Positions 23,600 to 35,119 of a stretch of DNA of 64,000 nucleotides are shown one piece after another (position 1 is the first letter of the stretch; each line of letters starts with the position of its first letter). Source of the DNA: [Phialemoniopsis] sp. UDSM-2020 (Eukaryota; Ascomycota; Sordariomycetes; Thyridiales; Thyridiaceae); assembly GCA_018873225.1 (NCBI GenBank), contig JAEILZ010000004.1, positions 248,001 through 312,000 on the forward strand. Direction: 5' to 3'. Made by a program: the position numbers and the translations under genes. The notes beneath the pieces were generated by a model. It searched no databases. It saw only the letters and a list, made by a program, of their open reading frames with translations, and was not told the DNA's origin.

Positions 23600-25639
23600 A
23601 TGATGGCTCTCGAAAAGATCGTCAGGGGCATTGCCGCCCTCTCACTGGCCTCACTTGCCTTGACCAACCCACTGCCTGATCCAGTTGTGAACCTTGCACC
23701 CAGACAAACCATCTCTCCCGGAGGCCAACCTTGTGGTCAGAACAACGCCACCAACAGGCGTTGCTGGAAGAACCTATGGAACATCAACACTGATTACGAT
23801 GTTGATCACCCACCAGCATTCAACAACCGCAATGTGAGACAAAACCTCCATGCCCGACCGAAGGTGAACTTCCGCTGATATGACAGCAAGTACGACTTCT
23901 TCATCACCAATGTCACATCATTCGTCGGCCCTGATGGCGTTACCAAGCATGCTATGCTTATCAACAGTGAGTAAATAGAAATGAGCAACGCGATATAACA
24001 CCCGTGTGCTGACATAGACAAAGATCAATTTCCGGGACCTACTATTGAGGCTGGTATGACGATCTTGTTCCATGCCTACATTTTCTTTAGTTAACATCTC
24101 ACTAGACTGGGGTGACTATATCTCCGTGACTGTGCACAATCAATTGCAAGATAATGGGTATGTAAACAAGAACTCGCTATCATCCGAACTTGTGCTGAAT
24201 TGGCTCTAGAACATCTATCCATTGGCATGGCATTCGGCAGCTTGGTGAAAGCGACCAAGATGGCGCCAATGGTGTGACTGAATGTCCCATCCCGCCAGGA
24301 CACAGCAAGACGTACTCCTTCCACGTCACTCAATTCGGTACCTCCTGGTAAGTAAATAGCACGCATCTTAAATCTCTCGTTCACATCATTAATCACGCTT
24401 TATAGGTACCACAGTCACTTCTCTTCCCAGTACGGGAACGGAATCGTCGGGGCACTCATCGTCCATGGACCGGCATCGGCCAACTATGACATCGACCTGG
24501 GCCCATACATTGTCACAGACTACTATCACCAGACAGCCGACGTCCTGCAGCGACGTGCTGAGCTTGTCAATGGTGGTCCCCCAGACAGTGACAACGTTCT
24601 CTTCCGTGGAAAGAACATCAACCCACTTGGTGCAGGTGGTCAGTACGACAAGATCACCCTGACGCCCGGCAAGAAGCATCTCCTGCGCCTCATCAACCCC
24701 AGCGTGGACAATAGCTTCACAATCTCGCTCGTGGGCCACAGCTTCACTGTCATTGCCACCGATCTGGTGCCTGTCACGCCCATCGTCAAGAACCAGCTGT
24801 TTATTGGCGTCGGCCAGCGCTACGACGTCATTGTCGAGGCCAACCAGCCAGTTGGCAATTACTGGCTCAACGCGACACTCGAAGTGAACAATAACTGTGG
24901 CAGATCTGTCAACAAGTTCCCGGCCGCCATAGTGCATTACGATGGTGCTCCAAACACCAATCCAACCAACAAGGGGACGCCAATCACCGCCGGCTGCGCG
25001 GATGAGACAGGCTTTGTCCCTATTGTCGATCGCTCCATCCCGTCATCTCAGTTCAACCCTACCTCTTTCGATCTCCAATTCACAACCCCGACGGTGGACT
25101 TCCGCGGCCCTGTTTTTCGCTGGCTAGTACGCAACATTGATATCGAAGTCGACTGGAGTCATCCGATCCTCGAGTACGTCGATCGCAACAACAACTCGTA
25201 CCCGCCCAAGGCCAACGTCGTCGAGGTTCCCCAGGCCAACATCTGGACCTTCTGGGTGATACAAAACAAGTTCGTCCTGCCGCACCCGGTGCACCTGCAC
25301 GGGCATGACTTCTTGCTACTCGGTGTGGGCCCCGGGACGTTCGACCCGGCGACCATGAAGAATCAGCTCAATTTCAACAATCCTACGCGCCGCGACGTGG
25401 CAGAGATGCCTGGCAGCGGGTGGATCGTCCTGGCCTTCAAGACGGATAATCCCGGCTGTTGGCTGTTGCATTGTCATATCGCGTGGCATGTCAGTCAGGG
25501 ACTGGGGATCCAGTTCCTGGAGCGCAAGTCGGAGATCAAGAGCTTGATGCATCTGAACCAGATGCAGCCGAATTGTGATGCGTGGAGGGCTTATGTGCCT
25601 ACCTCCTACTGGTTGCCGAAGCTTGATTCGGGATTGTGA
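23600..25639 (+). CDS. Secreted laccase (asco-laccase multicopper oxidase)
   Basis: Oxidises phenols with reduction of O2 to water, outside the cell; 589 residues. Exons: 23600-23833, 23891-23966, 24018-24053, 24106-24157, 24210-24347 and 24406-25639. A signal peptide follows [20 protein letters not shown]. All four copper motifs are present: [32 protein letters not shown] and [13 protein letters not shown]. The first two are formed across splice junctions. The protein ends in DSGL, the C-terminal tail that plugs the trinuclear channel in ascomycete laccases. ATG 23603 is an equivalent start. A first-intron acceptor at 23890 rather than 23886 is needed to keep the frame. Possible roles are pigment formation, lignin attack or detoxification. 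Confidence 0.93.
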
Positions 25640-27598: not shown

Positions 27599-27953
27599 CG
27601 TGTTTGTTGAGTTGCACGTGAGGGATTGGGAACACAGAGCGCTGCGCGTTGTATGCATTCTGCGATATGAGACATACTCTAGTGAGATAACAGCAAACAA
27701 CAAAACAAATCTCTCCGAATTGCTATCATCAAATGACCCCTCCTTCATTACATCAGCATGTTCGGAACTTGTGGTGCGATTGGCCATGAAGTCGAGGGCG
27801 CGGGCTGTGCAGCATGGTTAGGCAGCAAAGGGCTTTGCAAGGCTGATGTCAGGCTCGCGTACTTCATATTCATCAAATGATCCGACGTGGCCCGTCGCAA
27901 CCGCACCATCTTCCTTCCTAATCTGAATGTGACAAACATGAACCATCCCTACA

Positions 27954-30900
27954 ATGGAGAAAGATGAGGAAGAAAGCCACTCTCTGTGGACGTGTGTAAG
28001 TAACGTACCGGACAACCTTACAGCCTCCGGGCTGAACTGATGATGGCAGTGCCAATGTCAATTCGAGGATAACAAGGGCCTGACTTGCCTCTCGTGCCTG
28101 CATCCCCAAGATTCGCGATGCAAGATCCATATACATGAGCGCAGGGATCATTCTTCCGAACGCAAACATGGTTCATCCAATTACATCCCCCCACCCAAAC
28201 GAAAATCCCATTCCACCGGAGGCAATAGCCGCTCTACTAAGAGTAATCAGCACACTCCACAACGCTCGCGCTGGGGTGGTCCACATGAGGAAAACGACAA
28301 ATCTCCATGGATTTGCGTGAGTAGCTGTACCACTGAAGTGTGAGTATGACTGACCAACTATAGTGCCAATGTCTACGAGAAAGCATCGGATCATACTGCA
28401 AGCATTGCTATCATACCAGAGACACATGGTGCACTAATAAATTCAGTGAACTCAGACGACTCCCAAACAGCATGAGGGATACCACTGAGGATATAGGACA
28501 TGAAGACCCTTCCTCAGGGCACAGGTTGCAGGTTCCAGTGGAGCATCTCGAGACAGCCGGTGTGGTGAGCCAAGACCATCTGAGCGAGTCAAGGGCGCAA
28601 CAAGCCAGCAATGGCCTCGTCCTGGACAAAGTGCACTTGCGCGGGGTTGATGATACCTTTCATTCGAGCGACATCAGGGCCTACGCAAAAGAGCACTATA
28701 GTGCCGGCAACGTCGAATGGGTTGAATGGATCGACAGGACATCGGTCAATCTTCTGTTCGAATCCGAGGAAGCTGCTTCCAAAGCTTTGATTGCCATGTG
28801 CGCCGTTCATATTATACAGCCTGCGGACCTGCAGCCTGGTCAACTGCTACCAGCCAAATCGTACACGGCCAAGCCAGATGTTTCGCTGCAGATTCGCTTT
28901 GCATTGGAGTCTGACCGGAAAGGTGTAGACGATCCGTCACGCCGTGTGGATATCACATCTTCTTTTCACTTTGTAGACGAAGGATATGGGACCACAATGC
29001 GGAGAAACAGAAGTCCTCCGGCCACAGGGGAGAAGGCTTCGGGTCCGATTATATGGGCGTTGGCCAATGATCTAGTCATGGAAGTCAGCCCTTCGCATGC
29101 CGATCACGAGACTCAGCGACGAGTTTTACAAAATCTCCCACAGCTGCTGAGTTTATTTGCGTTGATGATTGGCTATAATCTTGTCAATAAGCAGCATCTT
29201 GAGATTATGGCCTTTGTGCACAAACACAGCCAGTAAGTGAATGCTCATATGGTCTAAATCATTTCTTTCAAGGTCAGGTCTGGATCAAGAGAAGTATCCG
29301 AGGCAAATGCGTTCCATAGATGTATTGCTTTCTGGACACATCATTTTGAAAAGGATAGAGTTAGACCGAGACTAACAAACCATGAACCACAGTGACATAG
29401 CGGCAGCGTTTGCAGACATTGCCTTCAGAAAAGACGGGCAAAATATCGATCACGGTGGGAAGAACTCAGGTATTATATCATGGGAGGAAAGAATACGCCT
29501 TTTATTGAACAAAGAAGAGCTGAGATTGGACGGTAAGCAACAAGATACAGACTGTGATATTGGTGCAGAAGGGAAAGACATCAGCGATCTCTGGCTTGAG
29601 TGTTACCGAAAATCAGGTGCCGAATCCTACAAATGGTTGCTGAGCAGGTTGCGGACAGAACTTCTTCTCCGCCCAGGTGATCCGGACGCTCGCGCAGAGA
29701 TTCGCGAGACGATACTGTCTCCATTGCCAGCTACTTCTTGGTTGCGTAAAATCAGCTACTCGCCTGCTCACGCCATTGAGTTCCTCGTCGGCTGGGATGC
29801 TTTGGAGTTCTTCGACAAGCAGAGCTACTCGAAAAAAGCGTGCCAGGTGTTTGAAGATGTCATCACCATCACCGGATTGGCTCAAGATGCACAGGCTATC
29901 ACATGTAGTCAGTACATGACACAGACATGGCCGTTTGCAGGATCCACTATATGCAAGTTGATCAAGAGGACCCTTTTTGTGGGCGAATATGTCGGTGCGT
30001 ACGAAAGTTCAGTGACGCTACCAGACGGCACCAGCGTCAGCGCTCGAATCGATGGCCCCTGTATTTCTGTTCATATTTTTGGAACTATTGCTTCCATCAT
30101 GGAGGTCGGGGAGATAGTCGCCTGGCTTGGAGCCGCCTTGAGACCTTCGCCACAGCAAACTGGCCTGATATATTGTCGTCCGACAATAACCGAGCCCGAG
30201 GAAGGACGCGCCATCACACGCCTCAATATTGGGTTTGTATTCGAGCAGATTCAGGCGTCAGCTCCGATTCAGAACGGTCAGTGCTGGCATGGGCTTTTCA
30301 GAAATTCAGTCGTGGTTCAGGGCTATCCCATCCCTCATCGTCTTGAATGGAATACTGGTCTAGAGATCCCACTGAATATTATGGCTGGTCTGACGCGAAC
30401 AAGACATATTGATGTCTTCAACGGGAAGACATATATCAAAGGGTTCTCAGCTATGCTTGCGTTGACAAGACTAGAAAAGGCTGTTGCACATTGGCATCTT
30501 ATTTATCACAAAGACGGAACTCGCATATCTTACCTTGCGGATAACGTAGGTCAAAAGCGGAGCGGGACACCTGGGGACTTGGAAGGCTGTCGGCATGTTC
30601 TTGGGTGGTGTTCCGAGGCCAGATTTTACGCTGGTAAGAGGTTTCGCCTCTGTCTTTCAGCTGCCCCTTAAACCTTGGCTAATGTGCATCCTTGCATATA
30701 GGTTCAGCAGAAGCTCACTATCCTATAGCTCATTCCGAGCTACCAGCGGTGCATGCTGGCGGTGAACTTTATGGGACTGTGTTCTTTCCAGGGCACTTGA
30801 TCATAGGTGGCCCACACTACAACCGTGGTATCAAAGACACTCCCCTTCAGGTGGTTCGCAATCAATACATCCCTCAACTCAAGTGGCTAGCCAGACAATT

Positions 30901-32980
30901 TGTGCTCTTTTGGGACGAGTCTGACAAGCGGGGCTGGCTTATCAACGGAACAAGCGCCCTCCTGCATCTTGTAAGGGCATCTCTTGCGCACGATAGTGCC
31001 GACAGATTCCGGCCTGCATTCCTATTCCAGAGCAAAGACCTCGAGGAATCGTCGACGCCGTTCGAACCTGAGTCAGCGATCGATGTCTTGATCAAGACAG
31101 AAAACTTACGCCTCCGAGTTTATCAAGACGGCGAAGGTTATCTAACTCTCAAAGATCGGATAGCACAACTCTATAACATTCTGGAGAAGCTTATCGACCA
31201 TCAAACATATGTCACAAGACCCAGTGGTGGGCCGCTCTCGGACGGACCATTCAGGTATCTTGAGGGGTGGGACTTTGAGGATTTGGCCACCAATTGTGAC
31301 CCTTTACGTGCACGTATGGCGAACCTAGAGCCAGCTGGAAGAGGGTGGGTTGATTTGATCAAATCAACTCATGCCGTCACCTTGTTTGGGCGTGGATTTG
31401 GAGACATCATCCGACCGGCTCGGACAGATACTTGCAAGTTGTGGGCTGAACTGCCCAGCCATCGCTACTTTTTAGCCGCGTCCCTCTTTGACCTTCGGAA
31501 GCTGTTAAAGATGCAAGGCAGTCATGATGATGGGCATGTCAGGCTGGATGAAAATTTGATATGGCACACCGAAACCACCATGTCTTCGACTTGCGGATGC
31601 AAAGGAGTTCCGGCGGCAGATTATTGCGAGCCTGTGCAAAGTCTCATCCCGTTATCACTTGCCAAGTCAGTGAAGAAACGAAGTCACCGGATCCCGCCAG
31701 GAGACGGCTGGGCATTTATCTTTGGGCGACATTCCAAATTCCCGAAGGTTTGGGGCGATACAGGGCTGACAAATGAATCGGACCTGGAAGTACATCCCAC
31801 TGGAACTAAGATCTTTCAACGAACGACCCCTTTGTCAGAAGACAAGGACAGTGGAATCGAACAGAGCCTAGCAAGTTCTGACTCTGAGGTCCGCGGTACA
31901 TCCCTAGCCTCGAGTAGTAACATTATAAGTAGGCCTCTCAGCAACGACCAGGATGAGTCTACAGTGACATCAGACTCGAGTTGTTCCGGAGAAAATGAGG
32001 ATACTTCAGTGCGAAAAAGATATACTGTCGGGATACTATGTGCGCTGTCAGAGGAACTCATGGCCGTCCGCGCTATGTTTGACCAGACGCACGACGATAT
32101 CAGGACACTGTTGGAAGACAGTAATCAGTACGTCCTGGGCCGGATGGGACGCCATAATGTCGTAGCAGCATGTCTACCTGTTAGCGGTTACGGCACTAAC
32201 TCGGCGGCGATCACCGCGACAAATATGTCTCGCACCTTCACTTGCATCCGATTTTGCCTTCTGGTCGGCATTGGCGGAGGCGTGCCATCAGAAGAGACAG
32301 ACATCCGGCTTGGCGACGTTGTAGTGAGCAAGCCTACCAAGACATTTCCCGGCGTGATTCAGTACGATCTCGGTAAGGAGAACGAAGGCGCACGATTTGA
32401 TCGGACAGGCATACTACGTAGCCCACCACGCGAGCTCATGAATGCGATTAGCATCCTTACATCGGACCCTCGTATAGGCTCGGAACCACTTGCTCCTTAC
32501 CTTGGACACATCGCTAAGCAACTAGCTGAGTACAGTCGGCCCGGACGAGAGCAGGACATTCTACTCCCTCCGCCTTGTCCAGCCTGTTCGCAAAAGAGAT
32601 ATTGTCCTGAGCAGGGCATTCACCCATCGAAGCCCAATTTACGCACGACCGATCAGCCCACGATTCATTATGGCCTTATAGCATCTGGTAACCGAGTTGT
32701 CAAAGATGCGGTGTTCCGCGACCAACACGCCCGGGAATATGGTGTGCTGTGTTTCGAGATGGAAGCTGCTGGTGTCATGGACGCGTTTCCTTGTTTGGTG
32801 ATACGTGGGATTTGTGACTACTGCGATTCGAGCAAGAACGACATATGGCACAAGTTTGCGGCGGCGACGGCGGCAGCTTACGCAAAGCTTTTGCTGAGCG
32901 TCGTAGCGCCTTGCGAGAGCGGCGATGATCTATATACTAGAGGATCCTCTGAGCGCGCGACTAAACGGCGGAGGCTATGA
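27954..32980 (+). CDS. Multidomain protein: duplicated Cys modules, NCBP3-like RNA-binding fold, fungal helical domain, C-terminal nucleoside phosphorylase
   Basis: 1,565 residues. Exons: 27954-27995, 28050-28316, 28364-29232, 29393-30633 and 30702-32980, all in phase. Order: Cys-rich module 1 (residues 12-38), Ser/Arg/Lys-rich linker, module 2 (101-126), an NCBP3-like fold (about 188-285: VHLRGVDD, VEWVEWIDRTSVNLLFESEE, AKPDVSLQIR), and a helical segment (about 330-400: LPQLLSLFALMIGYN, FVHKHSHDIAAAF). A long region found in many uncharacterised fungal proteins follows (about 400-1100: WDESDKRGWLINGTSALLHL), then CGC (about 1100) and a Ser/acid-rich linker. A PNP/UDP phosphorylase domain lies at about 1245-1540 (VGILCALSEEL, VGIGGGVPS, RLGDVVVSKPT, FEMEAAG, RGICDYCDS). 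The tail ATKRRRL is a possible nuclear signal. Such phosphorylase domains are effectors in fungal NLR-like proteins; no NACHT is seen here. Function is inferred. Confidence 0.85.
28050..28121 (+). repeat. Cys-rich module, copy 1
   Basis: Codes for C-x-C-x9-C-x2-C-x-H-x5-C. It is preceded across the intron by W-T-C at 27987-27995, which gives W-x-C-C-x-C. The pattern suggests zinc binding. The intron falls between the two adjacent Cys codons, in phase 0. Confidence 0.7.
28364..28432 (+). repeat. Cys-rich module, copy 2
   Basis: Codes for C-x-C-x8-C-x2-C-x-H-x5-C, preceded across the next intron by W-I-C at 28308-28316. It starts with the same codons as copy 1 (TGC CAA TGT) and is split by a phase-0 intron at the same place, as expected from an exon duplication. 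Confidence 0.7.
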
Positions 32981-33263: not shown

Positions 33264-35119
33264 TTATGCGGCAGAGATGATCTTGGCAGCCGCAATCTCG
33301 GCAATACCGTACGCCGCCGTCTGGATGTGAGCAGACAGAATGACGGGGATGATGCTGTTGTCCACGACGCGCAGGTTGGTCGTGCCGTAGACCTTGAGGT
33401 CAGCATCCACAACACCGCCGTCCTTCTGGGGCAGCATGGCGCACGTGCCGACGGGGTGGAAGAAGCTGTCGACCGAGTTTGTCGCGAACGCGCGCCACGC
33501 GTCGTCTGACTCGACGGCCAGGCCGGGCTCCGTCTCAACCTCGAACATGGACGCCATGGGCTCGGTCTGCGCGATGCGGCGCGAGAACTTGGCGGCCTCG
33601 ACGATGGCGCGCAGGTCATGCTCATTGCTGAGGTACTTTGGGTCGATGACGGGCTTGCCGGACGGGTTGGCCGGGTCGATGTGCACGCTGCCGCGGCTCA
33701 GGGCGTGCATGACGGTCGAGAAGATGGTGACAAAGTTGCCGCCCGTGTACCCGCCCGCGCCGACGTAATTGGCCTCCATGATGAGCTCGATGTCCGGGAT
33801 GGAGGCGTCCTGGAGGTACTTGAGCTTGAGCTTGTCGACGACGTTGGTGCTGGACCCCGCGGCGGACTTGGCGGCGGCGATGACCTGGGCCTTGGAGCTG
33901 GCGCCGATCTGGTCCCAGTTCAGGAAGCCGTATGCGGCGGTCGTGTACTCGTACAGGGAGCGCTCGCCGTTGATCCACTTCTGGAGCTCGCCGGTCGCGT
34001 TGGCGCCCTGGTTGGCGTAGATGAGGTCGTCGAAGGACTCGACGCCGGCCTTCAGGCGGTAGGTGTTTGAGACGCGGATGTGGTCCTGGTAGTTCTCACC
34101 GACGCCGGGGAGGTTAATGAGAGGGGTGACACCAGCAGCCTTGACGACGGCAGTCTGGCCAATGCCGGAGTTCTCAAGCAGACCAGGGCTCTGGATGGAG
34201 CCGGCAGACAGGATGACCTCACTCTTGGCATTGATGATGGTGCCATCAGATAGCTTGACGCCAGTAGCCTGCCACTCCTTGCCGCACTCCCGGAAGACGA
34301 CATTGGCGACCTGGGTGTTGGTCTTGACGACCAGGTTCTTGCCGGCCAGGGGCAGATAGCTGTTGGCCGCATAGGAGCGAGTGCGGTGGGTGACGTCGAT
34401 GTTGGTGGGCTGGAACATGACACCTATAGGCTTGCCGCCCATGTTGCTGCCATCATTGACGTTGACGCCAAGCTTGCTCACGGTGGGCTGCCATGTGTTG
34501 AGGACAGGGTAGACGACACGGTTGTACGTGTTCTTGATGGGGCCGGTGTAGCCGTGGGTGTCCTTGTCGGAGCCGGTGAAGTTCTCCGACTTGGTCATGG
34601 CGGCGATCATGTGGCTCCAGTCCCAGCCCTTGCTGCCGAGCTGCGACCACGCGTCGTACTCGCCCGAGGCGGCGCGGTCGTAGCACAGGTAGTTCATCGC
34701 CGAGGAGCCGCCGAGCACCTTTCCGCGGTTGACGCCGATCTTGCGACCGGCGGCGTTGGCCTGCTCGACGGTGGTGAAGTTCCAGTCGTAGTTGGTGCCG
34801 AGGATGGAGCCTCGGAGGCCGGGGACGTTGATCCTCAGCTCATCGAGGGCGGCGGGGCCGGCTTCGATGAGCAAGATGGAGGCGCGAGGGAGACCGAGAC
34901 TCAGGCGCGTCGCGAGAGCCGAGCCGGCAGTGCCACCTCCAACAATGACCTGCATTGAGCGAGGTTAGCTTTGTCCTTTCCAGCGTGCGGCGCGGCGCGT
35001 CGGCTTCAATTGGGCAAGGAACTATCATTGGGACCTACATAATCATAAGACTCCTTGGCCGGTGCCGCAACGGCGCCGGTGATGAGGGCAAGAGCCGTCC
35101 AAGTCTTGGGGAACAACAT
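33264..35119 (-). CDS. Secreted GMC oxidoreductase (AA3-like)
   Basis: FAD enzyme that oxidises an alcohol or sugar, often producing H2O2; 588 residues. Exons: 35119-35039 and 34949-33264. The signal peptide MLFPKTWTALALITGAVAA is encoded in the first exon. The FAD-binding VIVGGGTAGSALATRL is formed across the splice. Seen also: GKVLGGSSAMNYLCYDR (GMC signature 1), LSAGSIQSPGLLENSGIG (signature 2), FFHPVGTCAM with the catalytic His near residue 515, and TNLRVVDNSIIP at the C-terminus. Length is normal for aryl-alcohol or glucose oxidase-like members. A secreted H2O2 source would fit with the laccase 8 kb away, but the link is inference. Confidence 0.92.

Follow-up and report, generated by a model that had tools for sequence, protein, structure and literature searches.

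The window analyzed here is a stretch of 64,000 nucleotides from [Phialemoniopsis] sp. UDSM-2020 (contig JAEILZ010000004.1, positions 248,001 to 312,000), and at 27954-32980 (+) it contains a gene that joins two cysteine-rich (Cys) modules and an NCBP3 module to the core and the C-terminal phosphorylase domain of a large fungal protein family. Five predicted exons join in frame and give 1565 amino acids and a stop codon, and all introns are of the GT...AG type, so that the single five-exon gene with fused modules that an earlier note had proposed from the letters alone is borne out. Exon 1 (27954..27995; all features of the gene lie on the + strand) is an exon without homologue support; it starts with the ATG at 27954 and encodes residues 1-14 with the first part of Cys module 1. 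Exon 2 (28050..28316, residues 15-103) supplies the rest of this module, a linker with a basic stretch and the first part of Cys module 2. Exon 3 (28364..29232, residues 104-392 plus two bases) holds the larger share of Cys module 2, followed by the NCBP3 module and the beginning of the core. Exon 4 (29393..30633, residues 394-806, with its first and last codons split) belongs to the PF28131-type core, and exon 5 (30702..32980, residues 808-1565 plus the stop, with a split first codon) encodes the remaining core, a serine-rich linker, the phosphorylase domain and a basic tail.

The frame of exon 3 is open for 290 codons and includes core residues 333-392, the first part of the family core at 29051..29232. 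Because the NCBP3 module and the core start sit in this one uninterrupted exon, their join is direct and independent of splicing; that two separate genes had been read as one was therefore rejected. For the family itself we searched 5.8 billion proteins and obtained 946 homologues at E ≤0.001, the best 120 of which are called the listed homologues below. In local alignments 85 of these 120 have a core that begins no later than query residue 345, and the homology reaches or nears the protein end, so that introns 3 and 4 fall within homologous core. No homologue supports introns 1 and 2. An additional exon within intron 3 would also keep the frame.

A Pfam scan of the 1565 residues up to E 1 gave only two domains, NCBP3 (PF10309, residues 189-246, E 4e-16, 58.9 bits against a cut-off of 28.9) and PNP_UDP_1 (PF01048, residues 1248-1541, E 5e-11, 42.9 bits against 25.1). 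The phosphorylase domain is thus indeed C-terminal, and the module first read as NCBP3-like scores well over its threshold. NACHT, NB-ARC and C-terminal repeats were not detected in the same scan, in agreement with the earlier note as regards NACHT, and the protein consequently does not qualify as a fungal NOD-like receptor (NLR) of the STAND (signal transduction ATPases with numerous domains) type. The pattern W-x-C-C-x-C...C-x2-C-x-H...C of the two Cys modules was recognised by eye in module 1 (27987..28121, residues 12-38) and in module 2 (28308..28432, residues 101-126), both read from the sequence. Each is split at the same place, by the introns 27996-28049 and 28317-28363, which part the same two Cys codons. 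The earlier note had also named two Cys modules; no Pfam model matched them up to E 10. Their pattern was not found in the front ends of the 85 listed homologues whose core start is complete. In the source genome (44.2 Mb, 11 contigs) the Cys modules and exon 2 gave other matches only at E 0.53 and 0.65.

The NCBP3-homologous module extends over 28532..29011 (residues ~160-319), with the Pfam domain at 28619-28792; residues ~160-188 are not significant alone. When the source genome was searched with PF10309 at E 1, two places appeared, the window gene and C5:4090600-4090770. The latter belongs to a separate, apparently intact NCBP3-type (SAD-8-like) gene (L033), which as read starts at an ATG, contains one intron and stays open for up to 461 residues, possibly including one more later intron. 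A TAG within its match region is the acceptor of its intron, and its protein start resembles that of the database protein P0122. The fused module shares 55% identity with this host gene (C5:4090531-4090974) in an alignment that takes in exon 3 query residues 63-216, with 82 of 151 aligned sites identical. From this comparison the module is, judged by its sequence, a paralogue that has diverged from the NCBP3/SAD-8-like gene of the same genome. In front of the NCBP3 domain the two show no significant similarity, as 181 of 2000 shuffles score at least as high.

The two copies differ in the cap motif and beyond the domain. At 28727..28738, the position of the cap-binding motif WxDD, the fused module reads WIDR, while the host gene and P0122 have WIDD, so that the fused module departs from the motif. 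In human NCBP3 the exchange of WLDD for ALAA abolishes cap binding (PMC4595607). The homology to the host protein ends at about residue 319, and the long C-terminal part has no counterpart in the fused protein; for human NCBP3, two-hybrid data put the binding of NCBP1 in the C-terminal region (PMC4595607). The altered motif and the absent C-terminal part weaken the earlier proposal of a capped-RNA sensor, for which the retained Trp and first Asp still speak. On the NCBP3 profile the fused module scores 58.9 bits, the host gene 81.0 and P0122 75.8. Of the changes unique to one sequence among the 151 sites, 34 are in the window gene, 8 in the host gene and 26 in P0122, which is no established outgroup, so that no relative rates are derived from these counts; the lower profile score of the fused module agrees with greater divergence. 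Nei–Gojobori (NG86) estimates for fused module against host gene gave a nonsynonymous divergence (dN) of 0.38 and a synonymous divergence (dS) of 2.30, the latter saturated. This suggests an old copy that is still constrained and does not look decayed. The fused module has no intron at the position of the host gene's first intron, which could point to a retrocopy if the similarity upstream of the domain were significant. A structure model of exon 3 (from two sequences) has the strand-helix order of an RNA recognition motif (RRM) at a mean pLDDT (predicted local distance difference test) of just 35, and P0122 had no match up to E 10 among the PDB sequences.

We found no second protein of this architecture. 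Among 914 candidates of ~860-2740 residues none carried another NCBP3 fusion at E 0.01 by a method that needs shared 5-residue words, none shared the domain order for which the earlier note had suggested a search, and none was related to the front end of the window protein, for which the full-length protein served as query and this region was evaluated. The NCBP3 label is carried by 0 of the 120 listed homologues. Their best match to residues 1-332 has E 0.86. The protein had been put forward as a candidate undescribed one; as a whole it is not, since its C-terminal ~1230 residues are those of a large fungal family, and it was for the front end that no relative was found (0 of 914). A search by exon 3 alone, with 616 candidates, yielded P0122 as the one canonical NCBP3 protein. 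Since NCBP3-family genes are described from several classes of Pezizomycotina (PMC7263685), these searches miss remote NCBP3 copies. In the literature we found no report of an NCBP3 fusion at the level of titles, abstract starts and passages.

Residues 333-1565 are what the 946 homologues match. PF28131 is labeled in 120 and PF01048 in 112 of the listed 120, and the named ones among them are, as we take their taxonomy to be, ascomycetes. The assignment of the window protein to PF28131 rests on homology to the 120 labeled proteins; the Pfam library used gave no PF28131 match for the window protein or for 15 proteins bearing the label and apparently does not contain the model. In the best local alignments, core through C-terminus share 37-57% identity with listed relatives. 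The "very large uncharacterised region" of the first description is thus real (~900 residues), but, as these alignments indicate, it forms with the phosphorylase a widespread fungal pair. No paper was found in a literature search by the name PF28131. A second full-length member was not found in the source genome, in which only the window gene joins both parts. The same genome has five distant core relatives (L041-L045), and the open reading frames in the stretches examined around them gave no phosphorylase match. Frames at L043 and L044 encode zf-met or zf-C2H2_jaz fingers just over the cut-off; L045 is linked to the core only by one match at E 1e-7, and a frame close to it encodes a double Myb domain together with a jaz finger below the cut-off. 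For the fold of the core, the PDB match lists of a relative's structure model were filled by the phosphorylase domain.

The phosphorylase/nucleosidase-superfamily domain itself (32024..32905) has the putative catalytic residues E1258, E1492/E1494 and D1512, whose roles we assume from the enzymology of 5′-methylthioadenosine/S-adenosylhomocysteine (MTA/SAH) nucleosidases (MTAN). A domain stripped of its active-site residues in all homologues, the outcome that had been named as fatal to the original proposal, is not what we see: E1258 is present in 120 of the 120 listed homologues, and E1492, E1494 and D1512 in 118, the other two not being aligned there. The NCBIfam MTA/SAH nucleosidase model PRK05584.1 matches with E 9.5e-19 and 67.8 bits, and because this is far under the curated cut-off of 169, we regard the domain as a relative of MTA/SAH nucleosidase and not as the enzyme proper. 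The window protein alone reaches MTA/SAH nucleosidases in the PDB at E 0.005 only; a profile built from 59 homologues, with the window protein excluded, picks them up. Additionally, the structure model of the relative P0069 (mean pLDDT 74) matches MTA/SAH nucleosidases and thus has an MTAN-type fold. Against a library of viral structures the same model gave two matches at E ≤0.001, both giant-virus phosphorylases (pithovirus and megavirus). The bacterial PADLOC profile "PN-superfamily effector" matches the window domain at E 9e-17. The protein ends in the basic tail KRRRL (32963..32977, residues 1561-1565), which resembles a nuclear localization signal. The tail had been picked out at first sight, and it is frequent in PF28131 relatives: when we cut 74 tails of at least 12 residues after the phosphorylase (73 of the 120 listed homologues plus the window protein), 52 had a basic cluster, compared with a mean of 7.4 and a maximum of 16 in 200 shuffles. 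Such tails would fit nuclear import, which would suit the nuclear-type front ends described next.

What stands before the core varies widely. Among the 85 listed homologues with a core start the front end measures 20 to 1303 residues, and in 75 of them at least 100. By hand tally, 52 of the 120 listed homologues have labels beyond core and phosphorylase and 68 have none. The tally gave 19 NACHT, 11 ankyrin, 6 caspase, 5 DUF7082 (a domain whose function is not known) and 4 PF26082 (a label that came without a name), two each of kinase, TEA, C2H2, PAH, PHD and Clr5, and one each of HLH, Zn2Cys6, HeLo, PF20233, SDR, AAA_16 and LRR. DNA-binding, chromatin or zinc-finger type labels, with DUF7082 not counted, occur in 14 of the 52 labeled proteins (10 without PF26082). 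In 15 proteins whose domain positions were checked, kinase, caspase, TEA, HLH, PAH, PHD, C2H2, Zn_clus, Clr5 and DUF7082 precede the phosphorylase, and in P0013 NACHT is placed before it. P0001 (Fusarium xylarioides) has a PNP-NACHT-ankyrin unit ahead of the PF28131-phosphorylase core and hence two phosphorylase stretches in one protein; an insertion of its NACHT between core and phosphorylase is unsupported by the Pfam positions and the core start. In P0007 (Clonostachys byssicola), residues 230-592 hold a protein kinase and, behind it, a weak match to an RRM (20.6 bits with the cut-off at 20.7, E 4e-4), possibly a second RNA-protein module among the PF28131 relatives.

We compared front ends and cores in 86 sequences including the window protein, 76 of them with a front end of at least 100 residues. 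Similar front ends were found in 51/51 pairs with more than 70% core identity, in 36/37 at 60-70%, 31/37 at 55-60%, 66/104 at 50-55%, 121/392 at 45-50%, 88/791 at 40-45% and 92/1363 at 30-40%. P0057 (TEA) and P0061 (NACHT/ankyrin) have differing labeled domains at 58% core identity. The window front end was without a similar partner in this comparison too. An RNA-binding module in the sensor position had been inferred for the window gene; the module does sit where relatives carry other modules, but it is, as far as the alignment tells, a diverged copy of the host's NCBP3.

The fused gene has a GC content at third codon positions (GC3) of 0.516 (~0.52), compared with 0.77 in the host NCBP3 frame and 0.71 and 0.87 in two neighboring frames. 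These are 24356-25639 (+), which by eye resembles a multicopper oxidase (0.71), and 33264-34964 (-), which resembles a GMC oxidoreductase (0.87). An upstream ATG frame at 27938-27967 (10 codons with stop, out of frame) overlaps the start codon at 27954 and could dampen translation. A scan of the window with Rfam at gathering scores gave no match.

How could such a protein work? Tentatively, and at somewhat less than even confidence, we read it as a NACHT-less, single-chain immune-type receptor and executioner, probably nuclear, with the NCBP3 look-alike as an integrated bait. The N-terminus would be an exchangeable sensor slot, filled here by the two Cys modules and the diverged NCBP3/SAD-8 copy, and the PF28131-type core would keep the protein off or relay the signal. 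A factor that attacks or binds the real NCBP3, coming from a mycovirus, a mobile element, a parasite or an incompatible partner, would also contact the copy, and the enzyme would fire. The C-terminal MTAN-like phosphorylase/nucleosidase domain would then act as the effector that destroys the adenine nucleotide or nucleoside pool and halts the cell; a role in nucleoside depletion or cell death is suggested by analogy with relatives. An antiviral or self/non-self function, the other suggestion of the earlier note, is conceivable. An integrated-decoy model predicts a host paralogue, a changed motif, a lost C-terminal part, a position at which modules are swapped in and an intact enzyme, and this is what is seen, on a non-NLR scaffold. 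We infer that the bait reading is the likeliest among those considered, and the sequence features appear to fit a look-alike better than a sensor of capped RNA.

Several observations weigh against this bait reading. The fused module may still bind the cap, as it retains Trp and the first of the two Asp residues of WxDD, and its dN/dS indicates purifying selection on average. The link between human NCBP3 and NCBP1 is itself questioned (PMC7544205). The window protein shows no element, for example an NTPase, that could serve as a switch. NACHT, ankyrin, AAA or LRR labels in 25 of the 52 labeled listed homologues, together with caspase in 6, outnumber the nuclear-type domains, and such front ends look like receptors, effectors or adaptors and not like baits. 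The dissimilarity of front ends at moderate core identity may partly reflect fast divergence. Finally, the NCBP3-core-phosphorylase architecture was found in the window gene and in none of the 914 candidates, and this gives no comparative support for selection on a bait.

Other explanations have to be considered. The NCBP3 module could still bind capped or viral RNA and by this binding switch the phosphorylase on. Its score over the Pfam cut-off and the kept motif residues speak for such an RNA-triggered effector, to which the two Cys modules could contribute nucleic-acid binding; the sub-threshold RRM of P0007 and the zf-met/zf-C2H2_jaz type fingers of the distant relatives L043 and L044 point the same way. 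Given that the second Asp of the cap motif is changed to Arg, that the C-terminal part is absent and that the front-end labels, P0007 excepted, have no evident RNA link, we consider it unlikely. We see no better prospects for a heterokaryon-incompatibility (het) factor with polymorphic alleles. Recognition would then be a matter of the core or of allele against allele, and the NCBP3 piece would be a passenger or serve location only. Here the low GC3 relative to the neighbors and to the host NCBP3 frame is in favor, as are hetA and hetD of Aspergillus fumigatus, which encode PNP_UDP proteins with trans-species alleles (PMC11138114); against it stands the average purifying selection on the NCBP3 module, which would not be required of a passenger.

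A role without immunity is less probable again. An MTAN-type nucleosidase could act on cap-associated complexes as a metabolic or RNA-processing enzyme, in line with the MTAN fold of the relative and with the work of NCBP3-domain proteins in RNA processing and silencing (PMC7263685), but NACHT and caspase are among the variable front ends of the relatives, and the part with which human NCBP3 recruits NCBP1 has no counterpart here. Finally, we consider it very improbable that the gene is an artefact, either two merged genes or a pseudogene. The missing homologue support for introns 1 and 2 could be taken as a sign of this, whereas a single open exon holds both NCBP3 and the core start, the homology continues to the stop and the dN/dS of the NCBP3 module is well below 1.

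One may extend the bait reading to the whole family. The PF28131-phosphorylase proteins would then form a class of immune receptors in fungi that mostly lack NACHT and in many cases are nuclear. In one N-terminal slot they would gather, as baits, copies of the host's transcription-factor, chromatin and RNA-cap proteins, and the window gene would guard NCBP3/SAD-8 and answer an attack by nucleotide destruction. All of this taken together is doubtful, and the front end was tested as a host-gene copy for the window gene only. If the NCBP3 copy is indeed a bait, the nuclear cap-binding and silencing machinery would be a target of fungal parasites or elements, and the bait principle would extend beyond NLRs; in fungi, integrated decoys have only been proposed in the literature consulted (PMC12258605). 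Host proteins that may be guarded could furthermore be listed from the front ends of kinase, caspase, chromatin and transcription-factor type that share one enzyme-bearing core. Neurospora has SAD-8 as its sole NCBP3-domain gene; the protein is mainly nuclear, interacts with NCBP1, NCBP2 and Argonaute and is required for meiotic silencing (PMC7263685). NCBP3 is described as important for antiviral defence in mammals (PMC7263685, PMC6946169), and with both roles at hand the idea is directly testable.

In summary, the gene combines traits of several known systems. With the fungal PF28131 and PNP_UDP_1 proteins, annotated as "Pfs domain protein" or "nucleoside phosphorylase", it shares the core from ~333 to the end, the catalytic residues and, in many of them, the basic tail; the front end differs, and none of those compared has an NCBP3 or Cys-module front end. 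With NCBP3/SAD-8 it has the PF10309 domain and its flanks in common and differs by WIDR, by the lack of the long C-terminal part and by the fusion to an enzyme. In plant NLRs, integrated decoys have been studied in depth. There, as in the proposed Sordariales cases, a duplicate of a separate host gene is fused to an immune-type protein. A separate paralogous host gene is present in the genome studied here (C5:4090531-4090974), and the protein to which the copy is fused would be of the immune type. The window protein differs in being a non-NLR protein whose candidate bait is N-terminal and a copy of a cap-binding protein. In Sordariales NLRs it is copies of a CHK-2-like kinase that were proposed as integrated decoys (PMC12258605).

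Fungal NLRs commonly have PNP_UDP as their N-terminal domain, among several others found there (PMC12258605, PMC9815663). The window gene shares this effector superfamily with them, but carries it at the C-terminus and has none of their NACHT, NB-ARC or repeats. The usual NLR layout is seen elsewhere in the source genome, at C4:4166500-4175500 (L046), with PNP_UDP_1, NPHP3_N (NACHT-type) and ankyrin. The A. fumigatus genes hetA, validated by expression in incompatibility, and hetD, mapped and not validated by expression, resemble the window gene in PNP_UDP, the domain at which they were compared; hetD is without other NLR parts (PMC11138114). The window protein, then, carries an effector-type domain, and its role may be an immune one. 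Bacterial members of the superfamily are reported to act as immune ATP nucleosidases, and these anti-phage effectors of the PN superfamily, although distant in sequence, share with the window gene both the superfamily and the effector logic (PMC10197012).

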